Shown piece by piece: positions 6,118-42,151 of a stretch of 64,000 bases of DNA. This DNA is from a virus. The translations under genes were made by a program, and so were the position numbers. Where the stretch lies: the IMG/VR virus record IMGVR_UViG_3300020057_000496, positions 62,001 to 126,000 of that record; one strand, written 5' to 3'. The notes below the pieces were generated by a model. It had not been told where the DNA came from, searched no databases, and worked only from the letters and a program-made list of their open reading frames with translations. Position 1 is the stretch's first letter. Every line of letters begins with the position of its first letter.

Positions 6118-6321
6118 TTAGAAGTATTTCCAGGTAAGGTTATGCGGTTTTCGTGTACGTTCTGGTTGCCAGCCCCAAGCTGCGCTCAGGTAATGACCGT
6201 GGGCTGTACAGTTCGGAAAGTCCACACACAGATAGACAGGCAAGACGGGCTCGCGAATGATGCAACTAAATCCAGAGACCAGGTACTTACCGAAGTAGCC
6301 GGTACGAATTGTATATAACAA
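6118..6321 (-). CDS. MLY-family small protein, cysteine/histidine module
   Basis: Last member of the minus-strand MLY cluster. Read from TTG 6321 it begins LLYTIRTGYF, matching the family start, where ATG, GTG and TTG are all used. The C-terminal part VYLCVDFPNCTAHGHY is of the C-x(4-6)-C-x-x-H type, a possible one-zinc knuckle also seen at 7412, 8074, 8830 and 9731. An upstream AGGGGA may serve as ribosome-binding site. An in-frame ATG 72 bases further upstream would give a longer, less family-like N-terminus. Confidence 0.6.
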   Translation of the reverse strand: MLYTIRTGYFGKYLVSGFSCIIREPVLPVYLCVDFPNCTAHGHYLSAAWGWQPERTRKPHNLTWKYF

Positions 6322-6349
6322 GAGGTCCCCTTTTAGATACTGAACGGCG

Positions 6350-6523
6350 TTACTCCCCGGTACTAACCTGCACTGTATGCCAGGATTTACCATCTTTACT
6401 TTTCAGTAAGTAAACTTTATACTCCCTTGAGTAAGAGGCGTGTTCCTCTCCGCTAGCGTCGAAGCAGGCATCGTCAAGGACATCCCCGTACCGCCAGTAG
6501 TCTGTTTTAATGTGATACAACAT
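6350..6523 (-). CDS. MLY-family small protein
   Basis: 57 residues beginning MLYHIKTDYWRYG. The remainder (LDDACFDASGEEHASY...) is a divergent version of the FLDAF-x-DE-x-GLEHVAY module. ATG 6523 follows only two bases after a hairpin of the GATGTCG family (6526-6545), so access to the start could be controlled by that structure. Seven in-frame codons further upstream are unlikely to be used because they lie inside the hairpin. Confidence 0.65.
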   Translation of the reverse strand: MLYHIKTDYWRYGDVLDDACFDASGEEHASYSREYKVYLLKSKDGKSWHTVQVSTGE

Positions 6524-6557
6524 AAGATGTTGATACCTCGACATCGAGACTAGTATA

Positions 6558-6731
6558 TTACCTTAATTGAGTCCAGCGCAGACTGCCGCCCAGCATCACT
6601 AGAATGATATAGTGTTTAGTCCTTTTATTGTGGGCCACATGTTCAATTTCGTATTCGTCGAAAAAAGCATCCATAAACACACCTCCGCCCCATGCCGGCC
6701 GGAAGTAATCTGTTCGAATGTGATATAGCAT
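6558..6731 (-). CDS. MLY-family small protein, GLEHVAY-type module
   Basis: 57 residues, MLYHIRTDYFRPAWGGGVF..., continuing MDAFFDEYEIEHVAHNKRTKHYIILVMLGG and ending RWTQLR. This is the most common C-terminal type, shared with genes starting at 7336, 8031, 8804 and 12111. ATG 6731 directly abuts an array of five 26-bp mini-ORF units (6732-6860), which separates it from the preceding gene. Confidence 0.7.
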   Translation of the reverse strand: MLYHIRTDYFRPAWGGGVFMDAFFDEYEIEHVAHNKRTKHYIILVMLGGSLRWTQLR

Positions 6732-6860
6732 ACGTACGCGAAGGGGACGGAAGCATTACGTACGCGAAGGGGACGGAAGCATTACGTACGCGAAGGGGAC
6801 GGAAGCATTACGTACGCGAAGGGGACGGAAGCATTACGTACGCGAAGGGGACGGAAGCAT
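6732..6860 (-). repeat. Tandem array of five 8-codon mini-ORFs
   Basis: On the minus strand ATG codons at 6860, 6834, 6808, 6782 and 6756 each open the frame MLPSPSRT. The first four end in TAA whose last A is the first base of the next ATG (TAATG). The stop of the gene ending at 6860 overlaps the first mini-ORF in the same way. A 1-base deletion in the last unit changes TAATG to TATG before the family start at 6731. The 26-bp period equals nine codons minus one base, exactly what stop-start coupling requires. Confidence 0.8.
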
Positions 6861-7054
6861 TACGCCATAACTCGACTTACCACCTTACCTGTCGCGCCAC
6901 TCCAAATATAGACCTTATTTGGGTTTTTAATATAAAAGTAAACATAGCTCCCCGACTGAAACTGTACATCGAAACCGGGTTCTTCTCGCTCGGTCTGGAT
7001 ATTTTCATAGTCATTAAACCTTTCCCAGTAACTTGTATTTAAAGTATACAGCAA
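6860..7054 (-). CDS. MLY-family small protein, ERF...VQF module
   Basis: 64 residues from TTG 7054: MLYTLNTSYWERF, then GFDVQFQSGSYVYFYIKNP and KVYIW, shared only with the gene at 7628. Its TAA overlaps the first ATG of a mini-ORF array. A hairpin of the GATGTCG family lies 19 bases upstream (7073-7092). Confidence 0.65.
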   Translation of the reverse strand: MLYTLNTSYWERFNDYENIQTEREEPGFDVQFQSGSYVYFYIKNPNKVYIWSGATGKVVSRVMA

Positions 7055-7072
7055 AATGTCACCCGACTGAGA

Positions 7073-7148
7073 GGTGTCGATACTTCGACATCCAGGGCCA
7101 CGCGGACACGCCCGGCAGCGCTAAGATGAGGTGTCGTACTTCGATATC
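7073..7148 (-). promoter_or_regulatory. Two dispersed hairpins ahead of the 7054 gene
   Basis: GGTGTCGA-TACT-TCGACATC at 7073-7092 and GGTGTCG-TACT-TCGATATC at 7130-7148. Both have 7-8 bp stems and the same TACT loop. They separate the genes starting at 7054 and ending at 7160. Confidence 0.5.
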
Positions 7149-7159
7149 GGATTAGTATA

Positions 7160-7336
7160 TTACCTTAATTTGACCCAATTTAAGTCCCCGCACAGCATAA
7201 CGAGGACGATATGGTGTTTAGTTATCTTATTATAGGCAACATGTTCAAGTCCGTGTTCGTCGAGAAACGCGTCCAGGAACATGCCTCCGCCGCCAGCCCC
7301 TGGCCGGAAGTAGTCTGTTCGAATATAATAAAGCAC
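7160..7336 (-). CDS. MLY-family small protein, GLEHVAY-type module
   Basis: 58 residues from GTG 7336: MLYYIRTDYFRPGAGGGGMFLDAFLDEHGLEHVAYNKITKHHIVLVML, ending WVKLR. A perfect hairpin AAGATGCC-GTATAT-GGCATCTT (7347-7368) lies 10 bases upstream. The frame continues upstream through that hairpin to an ATG at 7390, which I reject as start. Confidence 0.7.
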   Translation of the reverse strand: MLYYIRTDYFRPGAGGGGMFLDAFLDEHGLEHVAYNKITKHHIVLVMLCGDLNWVKLR

Positions 7337-7411
7337 GAGGTGTCCTAAGATGCCGTATATGGCATCTTGAGATGTCGCATACAACATCATATTGGTATTT
7401 TAAATGATCAA

Positions 7412-7627
7412 CTAACGGAAGTTAATAACACTATATTCTCTATTACTCCCAGCTTTTTTACGATGCCAAGACCAAGCCGGAAACTTATTATGGGCCGGAG
7501 TGCCTTCACAGAACGGCTCGACGCACGTCAGAATAGTGCCGGGTTCTTGATCAAAGAATACAATCCGCAGGCACGGAACGAAGCTCCGTGGCTGCGTCCA
7601 GTAGTCTGTTCGAATATGATACAACAC
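7412..7627 (-). CDS. MLY-family small protein, cysteine/histidine module
   Basis: 71 residues from GTG 7627: MLYHIRTDYWTQPRSFVPCLRIVFF, then LTCVEPFCEGTPAHNKFPAWSWHRK. The GTG immediately follows the TAA of the preceding gene (TAAGTG), so translation is probably coupled. The tail is related to that of the gene at 8074. Confidence 0.7.
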   Translation of the reverse strand: MLYHIRTDYWTQPRSFVPCLRIVFFDQEPGTILTCVEPFCEGTPAHNKFPAWSWHRKKAGSNREYSVINFR

Positions 7628-7813
7628 TTACCGTCTCAACCGAGTCGGTCCATTATGGACGCGAAGCGGACAGAAAGCATTGAGCCACATAAAGACCTTG
7701 TCTGGGTCGCTAACGTAGAAGAAAGCGTACTGAGCGGCGAACTGCACCTCAAAGCCGTCCAGTTCACCGCTCCGAAACCTTTCCCAGTAACTAGTCTTTA
7801 AAGTATACAGCAC
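7628..7813 (-). CDS. MLY-family small protein, ERF...VQF module
   Basis: 61 residues from GTG 7813: MLYTLKTSYWERFRSG, then GFEVQFAAQYAFFYVSDPDKVFMW. The last 15 residues (LNAFCPLRVHNGP...) are encoded by a degenerate copy of the 26-bp mini-ORF unit (7651-7676), read in another frame. A hairpin at 7823-7842 lies 10 bases upstream. Confidence 0.65.
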   Translation of the reverse strand: MLYTLKTSYWERFRSGELDGFEVQFAAQYAFFYVSDPDKVFMWLNAFCPLRVHNGPTRLRR

Positions 7814-7848
7814 GTTACGTGAGATGTCGATACTTCGGCATCGAGGTC

Positions 7849-8031
7849 CTATTTTACCCGAACCCATTGTAGACTCCCTCTCAGTATAACAAGGACGATA
7901 CAGTGCCCAGTCTTTTGATGATAGGTCACATGTGCAAGTCCGCCCTCGTCGAAAAATGTAAGATTAATACGATTAATGTCAGTCTGGTGTGGATAAACGT
8001 CCCAGTAGTCTGTTCGAATATGATATAGCAT
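7849..8031 (-). CDS. MLY-family small protein, GLEHVAY-type module
   Basis: 60 residues from ATG 8031: MLYHIRTDYWDVYPHQTDINRINL, then FFDEGGLAHVTYHQKTGHCIVLVIL and WVRVK. Its first 72 bp (7959-8030) are identical to the 5' end of the neighbour at 8074, although the two proteins have different C-terminal modules. Confidence 0.7.
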   Translation of the reverse strand: MLYHIRTDYWDVYPHQTDINRINLTFFDEGGLAHVTYHQKTGHCIVLVILRGSLQWVRVK

Positions 8032-8073
8032 CACATACACTTAGTGGACGGAAGAATTACTTAAGTGATGAAA

Positions 8074-8289
8074 TTAGCGGAAACATACCTCTCGCCAACT
8101 ACGCCAGGCCCAGACTGGGTACTCATTATGAATCGAGATCCTCGCACAAGGCAAGTTGGAGCACATCCCGACACAGTGTCCGTCGGCGTCCTCCATGAAC
8201 GCGAAACGCGCGCACTTAAGATTAATACGATTAATGTCAGTCTGGTGTGGATAAACGTCCCAGTAGTCTGTTCGAATATGATATAGCAC
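8074..8289 (-). CDS. MLY-family small protein, chimeric
   Basis: 71 residues from GTG 8289. The first 24 residues (MLYHIRTDYWDVYPHQTDIN...) are identical to those of the gene at 7849, while the rest (MCSNLPCARISIHNEYPVWAWRSWREVCFR) belongs to the cysteine/histidine module seen at 7412. The switch from identity to unrelated sequence is abrupt, which marks recent recombination between paralogues. Confidence 0.7.
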   Translation of the reverse strand: MLYHIRTDYWDVYPHQTDINRINLKCARFAFMEDADGHCVGMCSNLPCARISIHNEYPVWAWRSWREVCFR

Positions 8290-8333
8290 GAGATGAGATG
8301 CCTTTCTCTAATCTTGCTTGATACCGAAGGGGT

Positions 8334-8522
8334 CTACCTAACCCGAAGCCAGTCTCTCTGGGTCCAGGAGTACCACATGGAACTACCTTTTAGTATCTTA
8401 TCTCTTAAACTATCGACATTCATAAGGAAGTCCGGGGTCCCTAAGTAGTCCGAGAACGCCTGAAGCTCAGCACCGAAGTTCGAAGCCGGAACTAAATAGT
8501 CTGTTCGAATGTGATATAGCAA
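8334..8522 (-). CDS. MLY-family small protein, GTPDF...WYSW module
   Basis: 62 residues from TTG 8522: MLYHIRTDYLVPASNFGAEL, then QAFSDYLGTPDFLMN, GSSMWYSW and WLRVR. The same C-terminal module occurs at 10795, 11012 and 14044 and, decayed, at 10381. A hairpin pair lies just upstream (8523-8562). Confidence 0.7.
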   Translation of the reverse strand: MLYHIRTDYLVPASNFGAELQAFSDYLGTPDFLMNVDSLRDKILKGSSMWYSWTQRDWLRVR

Positions 8523-8563
8523 GGTGTCGTCCTCGGATACCGAGAGATGTCGTACTTCGACTT
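8523..8563 (-). promoter_or_regulatory. Two degenerate dispersed hairpins
   Basis: GGTGTCG-TCCTC-GGATACC and GATGTCG-TACTT-CGACTTC lie side by side between genes ending at 8568 and starting at 8522, in the same position as the hairpins near other family starts. Confidence 0.4.
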
Positions 8564-8567
8564 CGTG

Positions 8568-8804
8568 CTACCTTACCCGAACCCACTGCAGACGACCGCC
8601 CAGCATAACGAGGACGATATAGTGCTCAGTTCTTTTACGATAGGCCACATGTTCAAGTCCGCCTTCGTCAATGAATGCGTCCAGGAATAGCCCACCGTCA
8701 TAGGCCACATGTTCAAGTCCGCCTTCGTCAATGAATGCGTCCAGGAATAGCCCACCGTCATTTTGGTCTGGCTGGAAGTAATCTGTTCGAATACGATACA
8801 ACAT
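8568..8804 (-). CDS. MLY-family small protein with duplicated module
   Basis: 78 residues from ATG 8804: MLYRIRTDYFQPDQN followed by two exact copies of a 20-residue block beginning DGGLFLDAFIDEGG, then KRTEHYIVLVMLGG and WVRVR. The duplication is a perfect, in-frame 60-bp tandem repeat, so the usual module has been lengthened without disrupting the frame. Confidence 0.7.
   Translation of the reverse strand: MLYRIRTDYFQPDQNDGGLFLDAFIDEGGLEHVAYDGGLFLDAFIDEGGLEHVAYRKRTEHYIVLVMLGGRLQWVRVR
8641..8760. repeat. Perfect 60-bp tandem duplication
   Basis: 8641-8700 and 8701-8760 are identical base for base and lie in frame inside the gene starting at 8804. Total identity implies a recent event. Confidence 0.95.
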
Positions 8805-8829
8805 TATGGTTACGATGGAGTATGATTTA

Positions 8830-9015
8830 TCAACATAGGTTAAGGAACTTAATGTCGTAAATCCAGGAACCATTAGATATCCGTGGTGGTAGATGGTACG
8901 GGCAGTACGGGTAATCATTACACCTAAAATACAACCCACTCCCTACCTTACAGTAAACCACGCACTTAGCACGACCATATGGGGTTACGTGCCCTGTAAA
9001 TATTCTATATAACAT
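8830..9015 (-). CDS. MLY-family small protein, cysteine-rich
   Basis: 61 residues from ATG 9015: MLYRIFTGHVTPYGRAKCVVYC, then YFRCNDYPYCPYHLPP. Four cysteines and a histidine could bind zinc. The usual TDY is replaced by TGH. The start overlaps the last codons of the endonuclease gene ending at 9005, so the two are probably coupled. Confidence 0.65.
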   Translation of the reverse strand: MLYRIFTGHVTPYGRAKCVVYCKVGSGLYFRCNDYPYCPYHLPPRISNGSWIYDIKFLNLC

Positions 9016-9553
9016 TTAGGACACGAAGGACGAAGGTTCGGATCCTAGCTAGAACGAAGTCACGGTCCGAGAACTCCTCTTCTGAGATTTCAAGGAGACT
9101 TATTCTACGTTCCAGCAGGAAGAGTCTCTTATTCGAACCACTCCGGATACTGCCCTTGGTGGCGTGCCAGAAGGACCCGTTGGCCTCTATGGCTAGATGG
9201 AGGGCTGGGAGCCAGCAATCCACTACGTACTTCTCGCCAACCAGGGCCTGCTCTTCGTATTCGAACCCCAGTTCCTGCTGAAGTTCGAGCAGGACGTCGT
9301 TAAGGGCATCTTCGATCCAAGTCCGTGGCATGCTACGGACGGCACAGAGGTGCGAGCAATACCGGTCCCTTCCGCGTCTCATATTGCCAGCCTTACGGTA
9401 TAGCGGAAGGCCGCATTCGAGGCAAGTGGAGAGTCCGCCGCCGCGACGTCCGGCGTCCCACTGCTCCCATATCTTGCGGCAGACCTGGCCGCAGAAGGTG
9501 GTCAGCCTCCGTGACGACAAGAAGGGGTAGCTACAGGAAAGACAGAACCGCAT
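9005..9553 (-). CDS. Vsr/EDxHD-like endonuclease with zinc ribbons
   Basis: Probable free-standing DNA nuclease. The N-terminal half has two cysteine clusters (CLSC and CGQVC near residues 4-27; CLEC, then YCSHLC near 44-70) likely to bind zinc. The C-terminal half has a PD-(D/E)XK-type core: WIEDALNDVLLELQ, YVVDCWLPALHLAIEANGSFWHA and LLERRISLLEISEEEF. This resembles very-short-patch repair endonucleases and the EDxHD homing endonucleases. It is the only member of the 6-14 kb cluster, apart from tnpB, without the MLY start, and may have spread here as a homing gene. Activity and target are inference. Confidence 0.65.
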   Translation of the reverse strand: MRFCLSCSYPFLSSRRLTTFCGQVCRKIWEQWDAGRRGGGLSTCLECGLPLYRKAGNMRRGRDRYCSHLCAVRSMPRTWIEDALNDVLLELQQELGFEYEEQALVGEKYVVDCWLPALHLAIEANGSFWHATKGSIRSGSNKRLFLLERRISLLEISEEEFSDRDFVLARIRTFVLRVLNVI

Positions 9554-9730
9554 TGGTGCATCCTTGTTGAGTCGTACTTCGACTTACTTACGACGGAAGA
9601 ATTAGTGCAATCGATATTTGATTCGCCCAAGTCCACCATTAGGATACCTGACTAAGGTCAAGGCCCCCAGAACACCGAGATTCAGCCTGGGCACGGTCCG
9701 CTAACCCAGTAAGCTGTTTTAATATTAGAA

Positions 9731-9943
9731 TTACCAAACGAAGTAGTGCTGTTTTCCTTCAACATATCGCCAAGCCTGGAAGCTTCTGGGGGACCTCGTG
9801 AAGTGATTCCGGCATTTCGGGTGTTCTGTGCACAGATATGTCCCTTCCCCTGGATGCCCCTCAACACGCGGGCCGATCTTCAGCACGCATGGATAAAACC
9901 CTGGGTCAGCGTACAGGTAGTCTGTTTTTATGTGATATAGCAT
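9731..9943 (-). CDS. MLY-family small protein, cysteine/histidine module
   Basis: 70 residues from ATG 9943: MLYHIKTDYLYADPGFYPCVLK, then YLCTEHPKCRNHFTRSPRSFQ. The ATG is the last in a TAATG chain of mini-ORFs (9943-10070). Overlapping its 3' end in another frame is the fragment NIKTAYWV (about 9710-9735), probably a relic of a further family start. Confidence 0.65.
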   Translation of the reverse strand: MLYHIKTDYLYADPGFYPCVLKIGPRVEGHPGEGTYLCTEHPKCRNHFTRSPRSFQAWRYVEGKQHYFVW

Positions 9944-10070
9944 TATGGACCCGAAGGGGACAGAAGCATTATGGACCCGAAGGGGACAGAAGCATTATGG
10001 ACCCGAAGGGGACAGAAGCATTATGGACCCGAAGGGGACAGAAGCATTATGGACCCGAAGGGGACAGAAG
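9943..10070 (-). repeat. Tandem array of 8-codon mini-ORFs (MLLSPSGP)
   Basis: Five 26-bp units (9941-9966 through 10045-10070). On the minus strand ATG codons at 10047, 10021, 9995 and 9969 each open MLLSPSGP followed by TAA. Each TAA overlaps the next ATG by one base, and the last overlaps the ATG of the family gene at 9943. The most upstream unit starts ATC instead of ATG. Sequence differs from the 6732-6860 array but the coding pattern is the same. Confidence 0.8.
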
Positions 10071-10074
10071 GATT

Positions 10075-10380
10075 ATTAAGACCGGCTAATTACACAACTC
10101 TGATCCAGTCCTTTTTAACCCAAGAGTACCAATTGCGTCAAGCTCCGTCACCAGAAGTCATCGCTTCTTGCCCCCTGGCGCCCGATTCCGGCAACTGTTG
10201 CCGGAATCGTTGCCGGAATGGGCGGCCGGAAACCGGGGAAGCGGTACGAGTCGGAGAGATGACGGCGAGGTCTCGGCAATGGCATCGCGCAATCATGCCG
10301 AGTTTTCGCAGCGGCTCAACCCCTCCCTGAGCCGCTTCCGGAGCGGGTTTTCTCCTTCTCAACCCTGCTCGGCTACCCAC
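10075..10380. other. Non-coding insert between duplicated flanks
   Basis: 10068-10150 is about 90% identical to 11510-11595 (ATTATTAAGACCGGCTA...GCGTCAAGCTCCGTCA). To the right of the left copy lies roughly 230 bp of GC-rich DNA with a perfect 12-bp inverted repeat (GATTCCGGCAAC-T-GTTGCCGGAATC, 10184-10208) and a 9-bp hairpin AGCGGCTCA/TGAGCCGCT (10310-10336). No gene is evident. It looks like a small foreign insertion or a terminator-like structured element. Confidence 0.45.
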
Positions 10381-10524
10381 TCAAACCCCCGAAGAGCCAA
10401 TATTAAGAAAGAGGTCCGAAGTATTCAGACAGTCGAGGTCCGAAGTATGCAGACAGCCACTGAACGCACAAAGCCAGGAGCCGACAGCCAAAACTAGATA
10501 ATCTGTTCGAATAGTATATAACAT
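10381..10524 (-). CDS. Short, decayed MLY-family member
   Basis: 47 residues from ATG 10524: MLYTIRTDYLVLAVGSWLCAF..., with a repeated CLHTSDL/CLNTSDL and the end LFLNIGSSGV. It looks like a shortened version of the GTPDF...WYSW type. A hairpin GATGTCG-TACTT-CGACTC lies just upstream (10527-10545). Confidence 0.5.
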   Translation of the reverse strand: MLYTIRTDYLVLAVGSWLCAFSGCLHTSDLDCLNTSDLFLNIGSSGV

Positions 10525-10549
10525 GAGATGTCGTACTTCGACTCATGAA

Positions 10550-10747
10550 TCATGCGTTCATTATTAGGAAGTTCCCGTTAACCGTACAGACCCACTTATT
10601 TTTATGCAGACGGCACGCGCCGTCGAGACATGTTATATATATAAATGGGTCCCAGCCTTGCTTTCCCGGAAAATAGACCAACCGTATACAGCTTGCTGCG
10701 CCGTTACCAGCAGTGCCTAGCCAATTTGTTTTGATAGTATACAACAT
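10550..10747 (-). CDS. MLY-family small protein, cysteine module
   Basis: 65 residues from ATG 10747: MLYTIKTNWLGTAGNGAASCIRLVYF, then IYITCLDGACRLHKNKWVC. The C-x(4)-C-x-x-H pattern matches the cysteine/histidine module. Six in-frame codons upstream (from ATG 10765) are less likely. Confidence 0.65.
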   Translation of the reverse strand: MLYTIKTNWLGTAGNGAASCIRLVYFPGKQGWDPFIYITCLDGACRLHKNKWVCTVNGNFLIMNA

Positions 10748-10794
10748 GGGTAGTTTAAGTAACAACCACGTGTCGCACCTGACACCGAAGGGGC

Positions 10795-10989
10795 CTACTT
10801 AACCCGAAGCCAGCCCCCCCGGGTCCAGGAGTACCACATAGAACTACCTTTTGGTATCGAAGGTCTGAGAAAAGGCCTGTTGATATTCATAAAGAAATCC
10901 GGTGTCCCCCAGTACTCCGAGAACGCCTGAAGCTCGGCACCGAAGTCCGAAGCCGGAACTAAATAGTCTGTTTTAATGTGATATAACAT
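10795..10989 (-). CDS. MLY-family small protein, GTPDF...WYSW module
   Basis: 64 residues from ATG 10989: MLYHIKTDYLVPASDFGAEL, QAFSEYWGTPDFFMN, GSSMWYSW, WLRVK. It is the closest relative of the gene at 8334, differing at scattered residues. Confidence 0.7.
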   Translation of the reverse strand: MLYHIKTDYLVPASDFGAELQAFSEYWGTPDFFMNINRPFLRPSIPKGSSMWYSWTRGGWLRVK

Positions 10990-11011
10990 GCGGCACCTAC
11001 GTTAAGGGGCC

Positions 11012-11209
11012 TTACCGGACGCGAACCCAGGTCTTCCTAGCCCAGGAGTACCACATCGAACCACCTTCTGGTATCGGATATTCGCATTTAATGGACCTTT
11101 CAATATTAATAAAGAAGTCCGGTGTCCCCCAGTAATCCGGGAACGCCTGAAGCTCGGCTTTAAGACTCATAGCCGGAATTAAATGGTCTGTTCGAATATG
11201 ATACAGCAC
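11012..11209 (-). CDS. MLY-family small protein, GTPDF...WYSW module
   Basis: 65 residues from GTG 11209: MLYHIRTDHLIPAMSLKAEL, QAFPDYWGTPDFFIN, GGSMWYSWARKTWVRVR. It is adjacent to the gene at 10795 and clearly a tandem duplicate that has since diverged. Confidence 0.7.
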   Translation of the reverse strand: MLYHIRTDHLIPAMSLKAELQAFPDYWGTPDFFINIERSIKCEYPIPEGGSMWYSWARKTWVRVR

Positions 11210-11215
11210 GGCGCA

Positions 11216-11446
11216 TCACACTAGTGGCTTAAAATCCAGGATATACGTCTTATTTCTACTACACCGGACCCACTGGTTCGGCTTCATGATCCTTTTTTTC
11301 CTAACTACGCACAGAGTAGTCCGAAGACTAATTCGATAATACAGTATATTGAGCGGCGCATTTTCTAGCTCAATATCGAACACGCATTTTTCTAACCCGT
11401 ATACCCCGGACACGACCAGGTAGCTCGTTCTGAGTTTATATAGCAT
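11216..11446 (-). CDS. MLY-family small protein, unique C-terminus
   Basis: 76 residues from ATG 11446: MLYKLRTSYLVVSGVYGLEKCVFDIELEN, then a basic stretch VVRKKRIMKPNQWVRCSRNK. No other member shares this C-terminus. It follows one intact and one degenerate mini-ORF unit (11447-11521). Confidence 0.6.
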   Translation of the reverse strand: MLYKLRTSYLVVSGVYGLEKCVFDIELENAPLNILYYRISLRTTLCVVRKKRIMKPNQWVRCSRNKTYILDFKPLV

Positions 11447-11521
11447 TATGGACCCGAAGGGGACAGAAGCATTATGGACCCGAAGGGGACAGAAGGATTA
11501 CGGACACGAAGCGGCCGGAAG
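11446..11521 (-). repeat. Shorter mini-ORF array
   Basis: Unit ATG 11472 (MLLSPSGP, TAATG) feeds into ATG 11446. A further unit at 11496-11521 has lost its ATG and diverged (CACGAAGCGGCCGGAAGG on the plus strand). Same design as at 9943-10070. Confidence 0.7.
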
Positions 11522-11618
11522 GATTATTAAGACCGGCTAGTTACACAACTCTGATCCAATCCTTTTTAGCCCAAGAGTACCAATTGCGTCAAGCTCCGTC
11601 AAGCTCCGTCAAGCTCCG

Positions 11619-11900
11619 TCAAGCTAGCAGGTAGAGGGACGGCAGCATGGTTGTGAGGATCTTGAGTCGCAGGTACTCCTCATCACGTAGGCCGCCGAAT
11701 TCTATATAGATCCTATTGATACAACCGGCCCCATGTTTATGCCTGACCAGACAAAGACGGAGCCTAAAGCGAGAGAGGCTATTTTCTTGATAGGGCAAAG
11801 CTAAGCTGAAACGGAACGCAAATCCATAATTCGAATAGTACATAACAAATAAAGGGTTATTTGGCATATGCAGGTAGTCTGTTTTAATGTGATACAACAT
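11619..11900 (-). CDS. MLY-family protein, longest member
   Basis: 93 residues from ATG 11900: MLYHIKTDYLHMPNNPLFVMYYSNYGFAFRFSLALP, an arginine-rich centre (SRFRLRLCLVRHKHG) and a hydrophobic end. The 3' side runs into a run of CAAGCTCCGT repeats (11590-11630), so its C-terminus may have been created by that repeat. A hairpin lies at 11903-11922. Confidence 0.5.
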   Translation of the reverse strand: MLYHIKTDYLHMPNNPLFVMYYSNYGFAFRFSLALPYQENSLSRFRLRLCLVRHKHGAGCINRIYIEFGGLRDEEYLRLKILTTMLPSLYLLA

Positions 11901-11925
11901 GAGATGTTAATACTTCGACATCGAG

Positions 11926-12111
11926 CTATCTTACTCGAACCCACACAGGTCGGCCGTTTACCGTTGCCAGAATGCAATGCTTCTTAGTTATCTTATTATA
12001 GGCCAGATGTTCAAGTCCGTGTTCATCCCGGAACGCATCAAGAAACGCTGACATCACCCTGGACACGCTATACGTGGGCGTGAAGTAGTCTGTTCGAATA
12101 TGATATAACAC
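11926..12111 (-). CDS. MLY-family small protein, GLEHVAY-type module
   Basis: 61 residues from GTG 12111: MLYHIRTDYFTPTYSVSRVMS, AFLDAFRDEHGLEHLAYNKITKK, WVRVR. It lies directly downstream of the tnpB right end. An in-frame ATG at 12159 would add 16 residues unlike any other member. Confidence 0.65.
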   Translation of the reverse strand: MLYHIRTDYFTPTYSVSRVMSAFLDAFRDEHGLEHLAYNKITKKHCILATVNGRPVWVRVR

Positions 12112-12189
12112 ATAGACACAAATAAGGAAAAGTTCACACGAAATAGTAACATTTTCCATTCATATTTCGCCAGGCCATAAGCGGGAGCA

Positions 12190-12206
12190 TTGACATCCTC
12201 CCCGCC
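12190..12206 (-). mobile_element. tnpB element right end / omega-RNA 3' region
   Basis: Just after the tnpB stop the minus strand continues from the gene end (TAGGAATCCTCGTCC, still inside the gene) into TTTAGGGCGGGGAGGATGTCAA, the hairpin and terminal sequence typical of IS200/IS605-family right ends. By analogy with characterised TnpB systems, the omega-RNA would end here and the bases beyond 12190 (TGCTCCCGCTTATGGCCTGG) would be the guide, although the exact boundary is inferred. Confidence 0.55.
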
Positions 12207-13262
12207 CTAAAGGACGAGGATTCCTACTGCTAGCGTCGCATGCCCGCGACGGAGAATGTTCTTGGCGGCATTCACATCACGATCGTGACGTGTGCCGCAC
12301 TCCGAACAAGTCCATTCCCTTATTCCAAGACATGTAATACCTTTCGGCCTCGACTCGGGGAGTGATCCGCAAGACGAGCATGTTTGGGTGGAGTACGCTT
12401 CGTTGACCTCAACGAACAACACGCCAGCGTTTTCGCTTTTGTAATGCAGCATTGTTCGGAACGACGACCAGCCTGCATCTAAGACGGACTTTGCCATTTT
12501 AGTTTTTGCAAGGCCGGAGGCGTTCACATTACCAACGAAGATCGCACCATTCTCACTCACGAGATTGGTGCTCAGTTTGTGCAGGAAGTCTTTCCTGCGG
12601 TTTGCTATTTGAGCGTGAATCGTTTTGACTTGTTTCGTCTTGTTAGCACGCTGCGCCGTTGCCAGCTTGACCTCTGCACCACGGTAAAGGCGCTGCGCTT
12701 CGATTTTCACGCCATTAGACATTGTAGCGAAGTCTTTCAAACCAAGATCAATGCCAACGGATGCAACGCCGGTCGATTTTGCTACAGCAACTTCGACGCA
12801 GATATTGGCGTACCAACGGCCACGAGTATCTTGGCTGAAACTGCCGGAACCTAATTTGTATTGGTCTAGTCCGTAACTATCCCATAACCCAAAGCACTGA
12901 CCCGCATAGCGTATCTGACCGCCTTTGTAGGCGATGCAGTCATGTCGGAATGGAATCCAGCCCAAGGACTTGCGCGCACCAAATGACGTGCGCCAGCGCA
13001 GCTTGGCTTTCTTGAACTGCTTGCGACGCGTAACTAGTTCAGCACCGATCATTTGTACCGATGCTGAATTGATTGACAATCCTTCCTTCGTTGCTCCTGC
13101 AGTATATTTTTGCAGGTCGTAACTACTGAAGAATTTACCAGTGCGTCGGAGGTGTTTATAGGATAGTTCATTGCAGTAATTCCACACCGTATTGACATCC
13201 AACGCCAAGGCATCGAGTGCCTTAGCGTGTTTGTCTTTGATACGGACTCGCAATGTTTTCAT
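12207..13262 (-). CDS. tnpB: TnpB RNA-guided nuclease (IS200/IS605 family)
   Basis: 351 residues, typical for TnpB. N-terminal WED/REC-like region, then a RuvC core: GIDLGLKDF with catalytic Asp172, and DRDVNAAKNI with Asp329. A zinc finger CSSC/CSEC uses Cys295, 298, 319 and 322. The usual RuvC-II glutamate is missing at the expected site (IFVGNVNASG); Glu286 in FVEVNEAYS may replace it, as in TnpB lineages described with a rearranged catalytic site. No tnpA lies nearby, so the element would need transposase from elsewhere. Known family role: omega-RNA-guided cleavage that promotes element retention. It is inserted between two MLY genes, five bases from the stop at 13265. Confidence 0.9.
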   Translation of the reverse strand: MKTLRVRIKDKHAKALDALALDVNTVWNYCNELSYKHLRRTGKFFSSYDLQKYTAGATKEGLSINSASVQMIGAELVTRRKQFKKAKLRWRTSFGARKSLGWIPFRHDCIAYKGGQIRYAGQCFGLWDSYGLDQYKLGSGSFSQDTRGRWYANICVEVAVAKSTGVASVGIDLGLKDFATMSNGVKIEAQRLYRGAEVKLATAQRANKTKQVKTIHAQIANRRKDFLHKLSTNLVSENGAIFVGNVNASGLAKTKMAKSVLDAGWSSFRTMLHYKSENAGVLFVEVNEAYSTQTCSSCGSLPESRPKGITCLGIREWTCSECGTRHDRDVNAAKNILRRGHATLAVGILVL

Positions 13263-13264
13263 GT

Positions 13265-13486
13265 TTAAACTAGGCGGACAATTGCATTAGCTTGAAGCAA
13301 CCAGGGAACACCACGCGACTGTTCTGGATGAATCAAGCAGTGGTCGTTATGACACTGATATAGCCCCTGGCGACTGTCGTCAGCCGAGAGGGGTTCTGCC
13401 CTTAACGCCGAGGTGAAGCTCGCCGAGATACAGGGAACGTAGTTCCGGTGCTTAGTCCAGTAGTCTGTTCGAATAGAATACAACAT
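13265..13486 (-). CDS. MLY-family small protein, cysteine/histidine module
   Basis: 73 residues from ATG 13486: MLYSIRTDYWTKHRNYVPCISASF, then LYQCHNDHCLIHPEQSRG. GGAGAG precedes the start by seven bases, one of the few members with a clear ribosome-binding site. The stop is immediately upstream of tnpB. Confidence 0.65.
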   Translation of the reverse strand: MLYSIRTDYWTKHRNYVPCISASFTSALRAEPLSADDSRQGLYQCHNDHCLIHPEQSRGVPWLLQANAIVRLV

Positions 13487-13526
13487 CAATATCTCTCCAC
13501 GGAGGTGTGGATCACCATCGTCGTTT

Positions 13527-13709
13527 TCAAACGAGAACGACATAATCGTGGTTTTTATACGAGAACGATATACAGGCGCTCGTATCTCCCTGCCAATAAG
13601 TAAATAGCCTCAAGTTATACTCGCCAGTGTAATCTCGCATGGCACATAAGTTCTTTGTTGGGTCAAGGCCCACTGCCACAAAGTGGTCGGTTCTAATTTT
13701 ACACAGCAA
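13527..13709 (-). CDS. MLY-family small protein
   Basis: 60 residues from TTG 13709: MLCKIRTDHFVAVGLDPTKNLCAMRDYTG, then a hydrophobic, tyrosine-rich end. Four tandem hairpins precede the start, more than at any other member. Confidence 0.6.
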   Translation of the reverse strand: MLCKIRTDHFVAVGLDPTKNLCAMRDYTGEYNLRLFTYWQGDTSACISFSYKNHDYVVLV

Positions 13710-13710
13710 G

Positions 13711-13808
13711 GTGAGGTGTCGATACTTCGATACCGTGAGGTGTCGATACTTCGATACCGTGAGGTGTCGATACTTCGATACCGTGAGTGTCGCACTTCGA
13801 TACCGAGG
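13711..13808 (-). promoter_or_regulatory. Four tandem dispersed hairpins
   Basis: GAGGTGTCGATACTTCGATACC is repeated three times at a period of about 26 bp, followed by a shorter variant (GTGTCGCACTTCGATACC). Each can fold as an 8-bp stem with a TACT loop. They lie just upstream of TTG 13709. Confidence 0.6.
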
Positions 13809-13813
13809 TGAGA

Positions 13814-14041: not shown

Positions 14042-14043
14042 GG

Positions 14044-14253
14044 CTATCTTAACTCAACCCAGGCACTTAGTCTCCACGAAAACCACACAGAGCGGCGGGG
14101 CTTGAGCCCGCCCGGACGTCCACTGAAATCATGCGCGGAATCCACATTTAGGAACAAGTCTCCGGTGCCGTTCATGTCGGCAAAGGCTCGCAGATTGATT
14201 CCTGGCACGTCAGATGTCGTGCTTAAATAATCCGTTCTGATGTGGTACAACAT
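14044..14253 (-). CDS. MLY-family small protein, GTxD...W module
   Basis: 69 residues from ATG 14253: MLYHIRTDYLSTTSDVPGINL, RAFADMNGTGDLFLN, SVWFSWRLSAWVELR. It is a divergent GTPDF...WYSW type. Just upstream a further start survives as a five-codon relic, MLYFI-stop, at 14274-14257. Confidence 0.65.
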   Translation of the reverse strand: MLYHIRTDYLSTTSDVPGINLRAFADMNGTGDLFLNVDSAHDFSGRPGGLKPRRSVWFSWRLSAWVELR

Positions 14254-14332
14254 ACCCTAAATAAAATATAACATTACGGATACGGAGTAGACGTAAGGAC
14301 CACGAACACTCAGCGTCGAGTCGTACTTCGAT

Positions 14333-14989
14333 TCATCGGAAATCCTCTCGGCGGAGACCGGGGCAGAACGTTGTCATCACTTGGCGGAAAGCCCCAGCCT
14401 TCAGGCCGGGGAAGACGTTACCAGCGCGACGAAGCCGGTCCCACTCGGCTTGCACCTCCGGCAGCGATGACGTTGCCGCGTCCGCGTCGCCGAGCGGCTC
14501 GAGCGCGCGCCGACGAACGCTGTACGTCTTTCCGGTCCCGGGCGGCCCGTACAGGATGATGTTCGACGCCGGGCCAGTCGGCGTGTAGGTCTTCGCGGGC
14601 GTAGCGGTGGCGACCGTGTTGGTCTGCACGTCGCGCAGGATGGCGTCGATGCCGATCTTGAACTGCTGTGCCTCGGCCTCCGTGATCTCGCGCAGCTCCG
14701 GCGCCGCCGACAACTCCGGCGCCTGCATCATCGGTAGCCGGCGCCAGTAGAGTTGCGTCTCCTTCCCGCCGTCGAGCGCCAGCACGCGGGCGAGCGCGAC
14801 GACGCTATCGCCATCATGCAGAGCGATCACGTGGCCCGCGCGGATGCCCTCTTGAAAGAGCTTCGACGGTACGGCGTACGACGCGGGCAAGTCGCTCACG
14901 CGCACCTCGTCCTTCGCGGCGAGTTGGGCCCGCTGCTCGGCGGGCGCGATGTCCTTTAGAGGTACGAACCAGAAGCGGGCGTTACTCAT
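14333..14989 (-). pseudogene. Truncated McrB-like AAA+ ATPase
   Basis: 218 residues from ATG 14989, overlapping the methyltransferase stop by 8 bp. The first 85 residues form an unknown recognition-like domain. Residues 143-160 hold NIILYGPPGTGKTYSVRR, a Walker A of the McrB type. The AAA+ module breaks off after residue 190; the last 28 residues (NVFPGLKAGAFRQVMTTF...) are not ATPase sequence but the translation of an IS right-end-like element at 14337-14421. The Walker B and arginine finger are therefore lost. It belongs to the imported GC-rich segment that also carries the methyltransferase. Known relatives act in GTP/ATP-dependent restriction. Confidence 0.7.
14337..14421 (-). mobile_element. 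Orphan IS right-end-like element at truncation point
   Basis: On the minus strand GTAACGTCTTCCCCGGCCTGAAGG-type sequence folds AGCCCCAGCCTTCAGGCCGGGG and ends in CGGTCTCCGCCGAGAGGATTTC. A close copy lies at 58358-58431. It marks the left edge of the imported restriction fragment and supplies the stop codon of the truncated ATPase. Confidence 0.55.
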
Positions 14990-17963
14990 CGCTCGCCCTC
15001 TCACTGCCAAACAGGCTCGACCAGCCGCCTGCGCGTTCAATGCATTGATCGATCTCGCTCGAGACCTCAACGAGTCGACCGCAGGCCTCAACGATCGAGC
15101 GGAAGGTGGCGATCTCCTCGTCAGACAGCGAACGCTCGTTCTTGCGCCGATCGTCGAGCCACTTATGACAGACCTGATAGGCCCCGATGGTAAACTCCCA
15201 CGAGGCAACGGGAACGGCGTCGAAGTAGCTCGTCGCGTTGATGAACAGACGCCCCTGCGACGCGCTGGGTGCCGTGAGTCGCATGGTCTTACCCCCCTCG
15301 CCGACCTTGGTTACTTCGCGGTCCGCGCCGTTGAACTTCGCCAACGCCCTAGGCGCCGCTACCTCCAACAAGTATGCGGACGCGAGCTGTCCTCCAAGCT
15401 CGCTCAGCTCGTGAAACGCGACCAACGTCGGGGGGACCGGAATCTTCGGGAAGTCCACCTGCAGCATGTCCAGGTACCGTTTCCGGTACTCAGGCGAGTG
15501 CAGGATCGCGACGATGTAGTCGAAGAGCAGTTCCGGCCACGAAGTCACTCCGCGAGAGGTCGGCCACTTGCTGCGTGGGCCAAGCGTCTGCTCGAAGCGC
15601 GCCACAGCACTCTCCGCGAAGTTGGCGACGCGGAGTGCTCCATCGGCCTCCGGGCTCAAGTACAGAGGGAACGCGTAGCCACGCTCCCTGCTCCTATTGG
15701 AGACGCAACTGTCATCGACGATGCGGTCGGCTACCAGCACATGGCTCCAAGTTGGGCTGACGATCTGGCGACAGACCATGAGGCAGCGATTGGTGGCCAC
15801 GGGGCGAAGATGAACAAAGACATCTTCCCGCGGCCAGTCGACCATCCAAGGCGCGTAGTAGACGTGCCGCGTGTCGAAGGGCCTGTAGAGGCACGGCTCG
15901 GGGCGAGTGCGCCACTGCCGGTCAGCCGCCACCTTCTTTCGAGCCTCGGAGAGTTTCCATCCCCTGGTATCGCCCGGCGGATATTTGCCTTCGCTTCGTT
16001 CTCCGAAAAAGCGGGAGCGAACTGCCGCATCGCTGACGGACGCGTCGCGAAAATCCTCGATGCGGTCGAGAAGGCTTTCGGCATCGAAGTCGACCACCAA
16101 ACCGTCGCGCGCGGTGATGAGCCCAGTCGTCGAGGTGGCCATCAGGTCGGTCACTTTGATGAACGTGGCAAAGTCTGCGCTTCCTCCCGCCTGCCACGGG
16201 AAGAAGAAGTAGTAGGGAGTGGAGGGCGCAAGCGCTGCGAGCCGGCCAGCGCCGGCCTCCAGCAGCGCCAGCTTCTCTTTCCTCACTCCCCAGACGTCTC
16301 GATGAAGCACGACAGACGTCGGAGCGGTGGACGAGGAAGGCGTCGCGCTGCGGACCATGATGGCGATCGCAACGCCCTGCTGAATCTGGAAGACGTTCTC
16401 GTCGGTGACCCCTTTCGGCATGCGTCGGCGATTCTTCGTGCTCCCATTCAGATCGATCACCTTAATTCGAGGGAACGTGCGCATGAGTTGCTGACGCATT
16501 CCTCGGAACGTCGGGTTGGAGAGGTAGCCGTTGTTCGTGACCATTCCCACGACGCCGAGCCCGGAGCACTCGATCCGCCACTGCGCCATACGGATGAACT
16601 TTACGTAGTCATCGTTCAGCCAGAGCTTCTTCTCGCCAAGCGACTGCCCATCGACCTCGTAGTAGCTGCCCGTCGCTTGGTCGGACGGCGACACGCCCTT
16701 CAACAGCCCGACGATCCATCCTCCGTTGTTCTGTGAGACGGCAGCGTACGGCGGGTTGCCGACGACCACGGTGATGGCCGCGCGAACCTTGGTTTCCTCC
16801 GCTAGGCGGGACTCGTCGGCCACATTCGCGCCCAGCATTTCGAGTTGCTTGCCGGTGTGCGGTTCGAGCGAGTTCGTAAGGAACACCCGCAGTCGATCGT
16901 TCTTCGCGAACGTGAAGCCGGTCTCCTGCAGCGCGAGGCCGAGCCGCAGGTGGCTTACGATGTATGGCGCCATCATCAGCTCGAAGCCGTTGATGCGCGG
17001 GAGCAGATCACGGCGGACGTAGCCGACCCACGCCTTCTTTGCGGCCTCCTCGTCGAGTCCCTGCTTCTTGAACTCGGCCTGCATCGTTTCGTGGATGACC
17101 TCGATGACGCGCAGGAGGAACGTGCCCGTGCCGAGCGCCGGGTCGAGCACCTGGACGAACGCAGCCTTCGGGTCGACGCCCTCGGGCACGCTGAGGTTCT
17201 TCGCCTTGGCGAAGGCCGCCCACGTCGTCGTGTCGGCGAGGCCGAGCGGAAGACCGAAGTCGCTCCGCAACGACGCGTGCGCCGTGCGCACGATGTAGCT
17301 GACCACCTCGTCGGGCGTGTAGTAGACGCCCTGGTCCCTGCGGAGCTGAGGGTCGTAGGCGTCGAGGAAGTCTTCGTAGAAGTGGATCGACGGGTCGCGC
17401 TTCTGGTCGCGGAAGACCTGCGCCACCGAGGTCCGCGCGAGCAGGCTCGTGATGTCGTCGAGCAGCCACGAGAGGTTCTTGTCGAAGTTGGAGTTGACCA
17501 GCTTGTCGAACAGGTCCTTGAGGAACGCGCTCGTCTCGGGGAGCAGATCCTTCAGGTTCTTGCGCGTGAACAGCGGGCTCTCGCTCCTCGAGATCCAGCG
17601 CGCGGCCAACATGCCGTAGGTGACGGTTTGCGCGTAGGCGTCGGCGAACTTCTCGACGCTGAGGGTCGCGAGCGCCTGATTGCAAATGTCGAAGAGCTGT
17701 TTCAGTGGGCCACCCCCGCGCGCGATCTCGCGCTCCAGCTCCTCGATCGCGATCGCCTTCAAATGGCGGGCACGCCAGGCGAGTTCGGTGGCGAGCTGGG
17801 CAGGCTTCTCAACCGCGCGCGGCACCGAAGCCGTGCCGTCGCTATCACTGCCGAAGACGTCGTCGCCGCTGAACGCAGCGCTCGAGGCCTTCTTCTGCGC
17901 TCGTTTTGGGGCAGCCGGTGCACCGTCGAGAATGCGGCGGACGAACTCTTCTTTGCTCAGCAT
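14982..17963 (-). CDS. N6-adenine DNA methyltransferase, type ISP/IIG-like, no nuclease
   Basis: 993 residues. A helical region (50-200) precedes the methyltransferase core: VLDPALGTGTFLLRVI (SAM motif I, residues 272-286) and the catalytic NPPY (403-406). A long C-terminal part with LYRPFDTRHVYYAPW and PLYL resembles the target-recognition part of type ISP and related PglX-like enzymes. I see no N-terminal nuclease or helicase, which full type ISP enzymes (about 1500 residues) have. High GC and codon use differ sharply from the flanking MLY genes, so it is an acquired fragment. It could still methylate phage DNA and protect it from a cognate host system. Confidence 0.8.
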   Translation of the reverse strand: MLSKEEFVRRILDGAPAAPKRAQKKASSAAFSGDDVFGSDSDGTASVPRAVEKPAQLATELAWRARHLKAIAIEELEREIARGGGPLKQLFDICNQALATLSVEKFADAYAQTVTYGMLAARWISRSESPLFTRKNLKDLLPETSAFLKDLFDKLVNSNFDKNLSWLLDDITSLLARTSVAQVFRDQKRDPSIHFYEDFLDAYDPQLRRDQGVYYTPDEVVSYIVRTAHASLRSDFGLPLGLADTTTWAAFAKAKNLSVPEGVDPKAAFVQVLDPALGTGTFLLRVIEVIHETMQAEFKKQGLDEEAAKKAWVGYVRRDLLPRINGFELMMAPYIVSHLRLGLALQETGFTFAKNDRLRVFLTNSLEPHTGKQLEMLGANVADESRLAEETKVRAAITVVVGNPPYAAVSQNNGGWIVGLLKGVSPSDQATGSYYEVDGQSLGEKKLWLNDDYVKFIRMAQWRIECSGLGVVGMVTNNGYLSNPTFRGMRQQLMRTFPRIKVIDLNGSTKNRRRMPKGVTDENVFQIQQGVAIAIMVRSATPSSSTAPTSVVLHRDVWGVRKEKLALLEAGAGRLAALAPSTPYYFFFPWQAGGSADFATFIKVTDLMATSTTGLITARDGLVVDFDAESLLDRIEDFRDASVSDAAVRSRFFGERSEGKYPPGDTRGWKLSEARKKVAADRQWRTRPEPCLYRPFDTRHVYYAPWMVDWPREDVFVHLRPVATNRCLMVCRQIVSPTWSHVLVADRIVDDSCVSNRSRERGYAFPLYLSPEADGALRVANFAESAVARFEQTLGPRSKWPTSRGVTSWPELLFDYIVAILHSPEYRKRYLDMLQVDFPKIPVPPTLVAFHELSELGGQLASAYLLEVAAPRALAKFNGADREVTKVGEGGKTMRLTAPSASQGRLFINATSYFDAVPVASWEFTIGAYQVCHKWLDDRRKNERSLSDEEIATFRSIVEACGRLVEVSSEIDQCIERAGGWSSLFGSERASDE

Positions 17964-18067
17964 GCTTCCTCACTCGGTCTCACGGGCACAGTCTCGTCGA
18001 GGCGACGAAGCTGAAGGATTCGAAAGCCACTGACTAACAAATACCCTATCTGAGGTATATATAGCAT
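17957..18067 (-). CDS. Short fusion frame leading into the methyltransferase
   Basis: ATG 18067 lies inside the 3' end of the MLY gene at 18046 and reads MLYIPQIGYLLVSG, then FRILQLRRLDETVPVRPSEEAC. The second part looks like the C-terminus of an upstream gene of the imported operon, and its TGA overlaps the methyltransferase start. The frame crosses the import junction at about 18030 and would couple the methyltransferase to phage translation. The MLY start may be coincidental. Confidence 0.35.
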   Translation of the reverse strand: MLYIPQIGYLLVSGFRILQLRRLDETVPVRPSEEAC

Positions 18068-18255
18068 GCCGGGCTTACCTTTTTCCGATCGTAGAGCCAA
18101 TTAGCATGCGGCAGCCCACTGTGCGCCCAGCCGTTACATAATTTAAGCGACGGACAGTGACTAAATACCCTGTCTGTGTCGACGAACGCCCCGACGGTAC
18201 AGGACCCCTGATAGGAGAGCGCCACGATATAGTCTGTTCGAATGTGATATAGCAT
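18046..18255 (-). CDS. MLY-family small protein, cysteine/histidine module
   Basis: 69 residues from ATG 18255: MLYHIRTDYIVALSYQGSCTVGAFV, then FSHCPSLKLCNGWAHSGLPHANW. It shows that the MLY cluster continues beyond the imported methyltransferase fragment. Confidence 0.65.
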   Translation of the reverse strand: MLYHIRTDYIVALSYQGSCTVGAFVDTDRVFSHCPSLKLCNGWAHSGLPHANWLYDRKKVSPACYIYLR

Positions 18256-18312
18256 TACTAGACAAATTTCTATAAAACGAGCTTCCGTACATCTGCACAG
18301 CAGACAGAAGGA

Positions 18313-18549
18313 CTAGCGCATCCTGAACCAGTACCTACCTCCACAACCCAATACGTCCCCGATACTAGGGACAATAGTCTCGTCCGTATCGTTATGTATG
18401 CCGAATTTCGTTTTTATCGAACCTAATATAAGGGTATACCCTACGGTCATGTTCGAGTAGCTGTCGGCAGTAAATGCTAACTGACGGTTCCCGTCCGCCC
18501 TGATGTTACGAAACTGAGTCCAGTAGTCAGTTCTGAGACGGTATAGCAC
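18313..18549 (-). CDS. MLY-family small protein, unique C-terminus
   Basis: 78 residues from GTG 18549: MLYRLRTDYWTQFRNIRADGNRQLAF..., ending GCGGRYWFRMR. The start overlaps the end of the 18527-19006 gene by 23 bp. Confidence 0.65.
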   Translation of the reverse strand: MLYRLRTDYWTQFRNIRADGNRQLAFTADSYSNMTVGYTLILGSIKTKFGIHNDTDETIVPSIGDVLGCGGRYWFRMR

Positions 18550-19006
18550 TGGCGTTCAATTCTCCGATTAACCGTAGGGCCTTCTGTGGAACGAAGTAAG
18601 CCTCCTCGCGACCGCCGTACTCCTGCAGGAACGCCCCGTCCTTGGCTTGGTCTGAATGAATCCAGCCGCGCACGACATAGCCTGGGGCTTGGCCTGTTAC
18701 AAGGACATAGACACCGGAAGGATCACCTTTTCGAACAATGAGTTCATAGGAGTGCCGGGACCGTGTTCGGACATAAACCGGGCCAACGTCCGGGCGCTTG
18801 AAGGTATCCACGCTGGAGTCATAGTACCACCCGACCGCCTTCGCAAAGGCCATCTCGCCGCACGCGCCTTCGAGGTGATACTGCCACGCCATGTCCCCCT
18901 TGCCGCCGTGTTTATCTTCTACCTGCCTGGACAGCGCCGAGACGTGTCGCATCACGCCGACGAGTGCACCGGCCATTACCTCGCTACTTGTTAATTTGAC
19001 GTTCAC
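18527..19006 (-). CDS. Conserved phage-type protein of unknown function
   Basis: 159 residues. The pattern LEGACGEMAFAKAVGWYYDSSVDTFKRPDVG-x-VYVRTRSRHSYELIVR resembles hypothetical proteins I have seen in other tailed phages. The E...D...VR arrangement faintly recalls a PD-(D/E)XK nuclease core, but the catalytic lysine is not obvious. It lies inside the MLY cluster and overlaps both neighbours. Confidence 0.65.
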   Translation of the reverse strand: MNVKLTSSEVMAGALVGVMRHVSALSRQVEDKHGGKGDMAWQYHLEGACGEMAFAKAVGWYYDSSVDTFKRPDVGPVYVRTRSRHSYELIVRKGDPSGVYVLVTGQAPGYVVRGWIHSDQAKDGAFLQEYGGREEAYFVPQKALRLIGELNASAIPSQN

Positions 19007-19226
19007 GCTTGTTCAGGTGCTTGCCGTAACCAACTGGTACTCTAAATATAACAGTAAGCCCGCCCGGCTTCCAGGCATAAAGACGCCCACGCTTCAGGCT
19101 GTCCACATAGATAGTTTTTGTATGTGCGTCTATGTCGTCGCCGTGAGGGTCGGTATGAACCGGATACCATACCGCCAGGAAGACTGCCGAATCTCTTTTA
19201 TAATAACAGGACAAAGAATACAGCAT
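18984..19226 (-). CDS. MLY-family protein, most divergent member
   Basis: 80 residues from ATG 19226: MLYSLSCYYKRDSAVF... The IRTDY core is lost but MLY is kept. The remainder contains IYVDSLKRGRLYAWKPGG. It is the first (most upstream) member of the cluster. A hairpin remnant GTCGATACTTCGGC lies at 19232-19245. Confidence 0.55.
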   Translation of the reverse strand: MLYSLSCYYKRDSAVFLAVWYPVHTDPHGDDIDAHTKTIYVDSLKRGRLYAWKPGGLTVIFRVPVGYGKHLNKRERQINK

Positions 19227-19272
19227 AAACAAGTCGATACTTCGGCCAGGGCGTACTCAGCAGTAAGTTATA

Positions 19273-31381: not shown

Positions 31382-31486
31382 GGCCTTTACTTACGATTCC
31401 CACAACAGAAAGGGAAGCGATTTCTTCCGCCGAGCTTACTCTCGACCATAAACCACTTGCCTTTCTGCTCGAAAGGCTTCATACTC

Positions 31487-42145: not shown

Positions 42146-42151
42146 CTCTTG

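Follow-up and report, generated by a model that had tools for sequence, protein, structure and literature searches.

A phage array of small genes with a constant coding start and variable bodies

The virus record IMGVR_UViG_3300020057_000496, from an uncultivated phage, contains a tandem array of about 26 small, co-directional genes that begin alike and then differ. Analysis was centered on a 64,000-nucleotide stretch (hereafter the window; bases 62001-126000 of the 166,852-base record), whose minus strand carries the array. The encoded proteins have their first nine or ten amino acids in common (for example, MLYHIRTDY), followed by bodies of several types. Comparison of the sequences demonstrates that several genes are mosaic, with the joint at the start, and that the units copied extend from the start codon through the body into the 3' flank. 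Starts and bodies, so read, have separate histories. Recombination anchored at the start is well supported, its mechanism being inferred. The purpose of the array is a more tentative matter: a bank of variants directed at the host is the reading favored here, at a little short of even confidence.

The constant start and the body types

The start was defined as a strict DNA pattern: [ATG/GTG/TTG]-Leu-Tyr-x-[Ile/Leu/Phe-type]-x-Thr. The minus strand of the window contains 25 such sites, against 0.15 expected from the shuffled window (both strands). All 25 open a reading frame (ORF) of at least 45 codons, encoding 47-93 amino acids (aa); 14 use ATG, eight GTG, and three TTG, the same three start codons reported by the first-pass annotation. 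With a profile built from the first 11 residues, a 26th member is recovered, the cysteine variant at 13709 (LLCKIRTDHF). The first-pass annotation had placed about 27 MLY-start genes at 6118-19226. The array itself stands, with 26 members, but the array proper ends at 18549; two further candidates, 18067 (MLYIPQIGY; start-profile E 7.7) and 19226 (MLYSLSCYY; E 12), were dropped. Outside the array, weaker matches to the start profile occur on the plus strand at 52980 (E 0.003), 55193 (E 0.017), and 42220 (E 0.05). The first two are small, Cys-rich ORFs, at window 52980-53189 (MLYHIITSY) and 55193-55333 (MLYYIQTGV), and are possible relatives of the family.

Members are named by start coordinate. 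Six are assigned to type A, four to type B, nine to type C, and two to type D; the remaining five are singletons, in keeping with the earlier remark that several members are unique. Predicted isoelectric points (pI) span 4.1 to 9.8, many of them above 8.

6118-6321, minus: type C, TTG start, 67 aa, Cys/His-rich
6350-6523, minus: type A-like, 57 aa; 52 nucleotides (nt) around the start in common with 11900 (94%), whose body is different
6558-6731, minus: type A, 57 aa
6860-7054, minus: type D, TTG start, 64 aa
7160-7336, minus: type A, GTG start, 58 aa
7412-7627, minus: type C, GTG start, 71 aa, C...C-x4-C...H; AlphaFold2 model of low confidence, strands only
7628-7813, minus: type D, GTG start, 61 aa
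7849-8031, minus: type A, 60 aa; first 72 nt the same as in 8289
8074-8289, minus: type C, GTG start, 71 aa; first 72 nt the same as in type A 8031, body different
8334-8522, minus: type B, TTG start, 62 aa
8568-8804, minus: type A, 78 aa; perfect in-frame 60-bp internal duplication
8830-9015, minus: type C, 61 aa
9731-9943, minus: type C, 70 aa
10381-10524, minus: singleton, 47 aa
10550-10747, minus: type C, 65 aa
10795-10989, minus: type B, 64 aa; AlphaFold2 model of low confidence
11012-11209, minus: type B, GTG start, 65 aa
11216-11446, minus: singleton, 76 aa; upstream block in common with 9943, body not
11619-11900, minus: singleton, 93 aa; start region in common with 6523, body not
11926-12111, minus: type A, GTG start, 61 aa; aligns with 6731 from start to start, up to codon 9 of the next gene
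13265-13486, minus: type C, 73 aa
13527-13709, minus: singleton, TTG start, LLCKIRTDHF variant, 60 aa
13814-14041, minus: type C, GTG start, 75 aa
14044-14253, minus: type B, 69 aa
18046-18255, minus: type C, 69 aa
18313-18549, minus: singleton, GTG start, 78 aa; outermost member backed by the start profile

Codon comparison demonstrates protein-level selection at the start, because synonymous sites are near saturation and the amino acids are held. Between types, the proportions of synonymous and nonsynonymous differences (pS and pN) across start codons 2-9 are 0.77 and 0.20; Leu2 is encoded by five codons and Arg6 by three. Within types A, B, and D, the bodies give pS values of 0.66, 0.60, and 0.72, and pN values of 0.36, 0.31, and 0.36, respectively, as for purifying selection weaker than that on the start. 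By these codon measures the array members are protein genes.

Profile comparison (hhalign) aligns types A and B across 44 columns with probability 97, establishing that they are homologous in sequence. In contrast, either type aligns with type C only over the first 12-13 residues. Two landmarks, which were read off types A and B after sight of the sequences and then counted in type C, each occur in four of nine type C bodies: [AV]F.[DE] (shuffle mean 0.13) and a terminal [VILFM][RK] (shuffle mean 0.24). Types A, B, and at least part of C therefore read as one divergent family. Type C is otherwise marked by the pattern C...C-x4/5-C...H, in which Cys19, Cys45, and Cys50 (numbered as in 13486) are invariant, and type D by ERF..GFxVQF. 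Type D and the five singletons have the start alone in common; the exception is 18549, which contains both landmarks. At least four C-terminal types had been proposed, and all of those named were found, but they are not four unrelated ones.

Relatives of the array were sought widely. None was found in a phage collection (tblastn and megablast), in IMG/VR (protein alignment and DNA pattern), or in GTDB genomes, and no member matched Pfam, PHROGs, or PDB sequences below E 0.01 (best Pfam 0.012; best PHROGs 0.046). Across these searches, then, there was no match to a single characterized family; such a match is what the first-pass annotation had set against its own proposal. The closest sequences to the phage are two IMG/VR fragments more than 99.6% identical to it, whose coverage does not include the array. 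Three contigs that encode a ThyX 50-52% identical have no array in the parts covered.

Mosaic joints at the start

The constant start joined to variable bodies, as first described, is borne out by several nucleotide-level joints. Beginning at the second base of the start codon, genes 8031 (type A) and 8289 (type C) have 72 nt exactly in common, after which the two sequences part entirely. A 160-nt block upstream of 9943 and 11446 is 94% identical and ends at the start in 11446; the two bodies differ. Similarity between genes 12111 and 6731 begins at the start, crosses the intergenic region, and reaches codon 9 of the following gene, at which point the following bodies diverge. The type A flanks are asymmetric: of the ten pairs that do not involve 6523, every one is similar over the 30 nt downstream of the stop, but only one over the 30 nt upstream of the start.

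Start and body similarities are also discordant. Codon-usage-corrected synonymous similarity between types A and C is 0.41 for starts but 0.02 for bodies (body alignment z 0.4, no better than shuffled), compared to 0.31 for bodies within type A; the measure is noisy, as B-B pairs reverse the order (0.11 for start, 0.40 for body, partly due to 14253). Finally, the body types are interleaved along the array, and some bodies are unalignable. Recombination at the start is favored because of the mosaics; gene conversion of starts, replacement of bodies, or nucleotide-level constraint could each contribute.

Two adjacent genes in the window encode a plausible apparatus for recombination at short homology:

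31484-32614, plus: Cas4-domain exonuclease, candidate recombination component
32628-33530, plus: Sak4-like single-strand annealing protein (AAA_24); may be the recombinase acting at the start joints

The first-pass annotation also raised the alternative that the set is self-diversifying. The record, which may be incomplete, has no match to reverse transcriptase (PF00078, detected in control genomes) or tyrosine integrase (PF00589; attC sites were not searched for), and neither serine resolvase nor Y1 transposase was detected. Nothing in these results points to an enzyme dedicated to diversification; ordinary recombination, perhaps through the Sak4-like/Cas4-type pair, would be enough.

Two repeated elements accompany the genes. 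Element P, a dyad (TCGAAGTA(T)CGAC), occurs 18 times in the genome on both strands, with 0.25 expected (for example, at window 5206, 7088, 34213, and 41906). Ten of the 18 copies lie in the array, where P comes after most type A genes. The other is a 26-nt tandem repeat found before three starts:

13711-13805, minus: four tandem copies of a 24-nt form of element P (GGTATCGAAGTATCGACACC)
6727-6864, minus: 5.3 tandem copies of the 26-nt repeat, immediately before start 6731
9939-10076, minus: 26-nt tandem repeat upstream of 9943, within the 160-nt block matching upstream of 11446 (94%)
11442-11527: 26-nt tandem units before 11446

The 26-nt element contains ATGCT. Before 9943, each intact copy opens an eight-codon ORF (MLLSPSGP) that runs, through a stop-start overlap (TAATG), into the following copy; the final copy overlaps the actual gene start. 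Shine-Dalgarno matches at member starts are weak, and RNA folding at six start regions was no better than that of shuffles (z -1.6 to 0.8), which lends hairpins there no support.

The array within the phage record

The record is that of a tailed double-stranded DNA phage, or a large part of one, because it encodes an HK97-type capsid protein, a prohead protease (Peptidase_S78), a DnaB-type primase-helicase, ribonucleotide reductase, and a terminase-like protein; most tblastn matches to the last carry a terminase annotation. The array sits in an accessory region of this 167-kb record, in the company of a methyltransferase, TnpB, a homing-endonuclease-like gene, and an AAA (McrB-like) fragment. 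Adjacent members are mostly 0-130 nt apart, with wider spacing where other genes intervene:

9005-9553, minus: homing-endonuclease-like gene (weak PADLOC HEase match, no Pfam match)
12207-13262, minus: TnpB/OrfB gene (Cas12f1-like_TNB, OrfB_IS605)
14982-17963, minus: Type ISP/IIG-like adenine methyltransferase gene

The last of these interruptions, with an adjoining AAA-domain fragment, occupies 14333-17963. The fragment is a short ORF after the methyltransferase that appears McrB-like by eye (P-loop GPPGTGKT). It ends in a peptide, NVFPGLKAGAFRQV, that recurs beside a TnpB-like ORF at L007:3832-5031, and it may have been cut by an insertion sequence. Sigma-70-type promoters number 16, compared to 10.8 expected, with no clear promoter per gene, and an Rfam scan gave no convincing match.

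Several other features of the record were noted. A patatin-like phospholipase at window 24131-25006 matches PADLOC phospholipase effector models (E 2e-59), here in a phage. A 120-bp segment of the terminase gene (L009:793-912) is repeated at 97% identity, in frame, within the prohead protease ORF (L009:5006-5125); the peptide common to both is IGVDVSRYGSDETI, and the near-identical contigs L012 and L013 match both copies. A SNF2-type helicase with a LAGLIDADG domain is an intein candidate. Apparent inteins, judged by eye apart from that LAGLIDADG domain, interrupt several genes: window 34820-37723; L009:7105-9303; and L006:8624-10540, 10507-12879, and 17697-19322. A long ORF contains GC-rich short-period repeats at window 58894-59168, and a tRNA-like gene lies at window 42074-42146, its two-base anticodon being undetermined.

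Precedents, alternatives, and possible function

The first-pass annotation regarded the design as absent from described phage systems. Two precedents say otherwise: the T4 internal proteins, considered below, and the Erp proteins of the Borrelia cp32 prophages. The latter combine bodies of diverse origin with a leader that arose once, and recombine frequently (PMC10016077). The likeness extends to recombination between leader and body, and to genes that are prophage-borne. However, Erp proteins have a lipoprotein signal leader, whereas the start here is polar (MLYHIRTDY; maximum 19-residue mean hydropathy 1.42), and Erp genes occupy one locus per replicon rather than a single array. What is unusual here is the number of genes in one array, the first-strand-like constant part, and the lack of relatives in the searches made.

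The favored reading, held tentatively as noted, is of a lineage-specific family expanded by start-anchored recombination and kept as a bank of host-directed, probably anti-defence, variants. The shared start of about 27 nt would supply homology for recombination, probably through the Sak4-like/Cas4-type pair. Behind a start that already works, bodies could then be copied, exchanged, and joined anew, and the set would be retained as a variant bank against host targets that vary, defence proteins or other proteins of the host being the most likely. The constant N-terminus, in turn, may be a first strand common to the members, or may serve them all in binding or targeting. Taken by itself, a host-directed or anti-defence function, argued from precedent and neighborhood, is given somewhat under half of our belief.

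Several points weigh against this reading. The host-directed role is proposed by analogy and from the neighborhood, and translation of the members is predicted from their codons. Nucleotide-level constraint on the start could also yield its synonymous similarity. The landmarks were chosen post hoc; they are absent from about half of the type C bodies and most singletons, so a single fold may not hold for all. AlphaFold2 models of type B (10989; pLDDT 48) and type C (7627; pLDDT 54) are mostly strands and unreliable. And with no relatives found, there is no independent lineage displaying cassette turnover.

A stronger version of the favored reading has selection maintaining the array as a dedicated cassette system. 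Its 27-nt coding start would double as translation start and recombination anchor, so that bodies of several folds, new ones among them, could be captured and swapped into a host-directed library. This we consider unlikely. An equally unlikely alternative is amplification for dosage or without selection: one function, copied by unequal recombination at the start homology, with divergence that owes nothing to selection for variety. The tandem repeats and in-frame duplications (as in 8804) do mark a recombination-prone region. T4, moreover, amplifies tifA, a small anti-defence and anti-toxin gene, under selection through 6-10 bp microhomology (PMC9391042); tandem amplification and short homology are features of both systems. 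The T4 copies are recent and laboratory-selected, however, whereas those here are diverged and have replaced bodies. The interleaved body types, some unalignable, also fit poorly, and unlike in simple decay the bodies stay open, with A and B under purifying selection.

The start might instead be a targeting leader, directing the proteins to be packaged in the head and injected, whereupon the bodies inhibit host enzymes. This is the pattern of the T4 internal proteins Ip1-Ip3 and their relatives: small proteins, several per phage, that have in common an N-terminal leader alone on otherwise non-homologous bodies, several of which inhibit different Type IV restriction enzymes (GmrSD) (PMC12373910, PMC3012670). 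The short, extreme N-terminal position of the constant part, the presence of prohead protease and HK97-type capsid genes, and the high pI of many members all agree with it. However, the array has about 26 copies in one place; the landmarks of A, B, and part of C continue past the start to the C-terminus, so that the start seems part of the fold (other bodies are unalignable); the pI range extends down to 4.1; and the start profile found no recognized virion gene. Nor is an L-x-E-like cleavage site enriched after the leader: a prohead-protease-type motif, [LIVMFA]xE, occurs within residues 8-27 of five of 26 members, with a shuffle mean of 5.05, although the protease of this phage may differ in specificity. 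We judge this idea quite improbable.

A role of the constant region chiefly in nucleotide-level control, for translation initiation or regulator binding, with the peptide as by-product, is very improbable. Synonymous similarity is higher at starts than in bodies, the Shine-Dalgarno matches are weak, and in cluster K mycobacteriophages short repeats termed SAS and ESAS, some with inverted repeats, lie beside many gene starts (PMC3203893). But SAS, 13 bp long, is noncoding and precedes the start, whereas the common part here is coding, conservation beginning at the start codon; neither element P nor the 26-mer resembles the published 13-bp SAS consensus; and no SAS motif (GGGATAGGAGCCC) was seen by eye in the upstream sequences of members. 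The near-saturated synonymous sites, the five codons for Leu2, the unremarkable RNA folding, and the plus-strand ORF at 52980, which retains most of the peptide through other codons, all argue against such an element.

Small Cys/His and β-rich regulators that bind nucleic acid and control phage genes, with element P as target, would fit the cysteine pattern of type C and the excess of P copies, but this too is very improbable: the Pfam, PHROGs, and PDB searches gave no similarity to a known DNA-binding family, and P could be a passenger, since ten of its 18 copies are inside the array and several of these are linked to type A genes as 3' flanks.

If the bodies are indeed host-directed, then this one genome would offer some 26 candidate inhibitors for cloning and screening in parallel, and a clear case of phage protein variety generated by recombination at a common coding start, without a dedicated enzyme. 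Because the members have no relatives in the collections searched, their activities would be new. And if the bodies prove to be unrelated folds, the array would allow the origin of new small genes behind a borrowed start to be put to the test.

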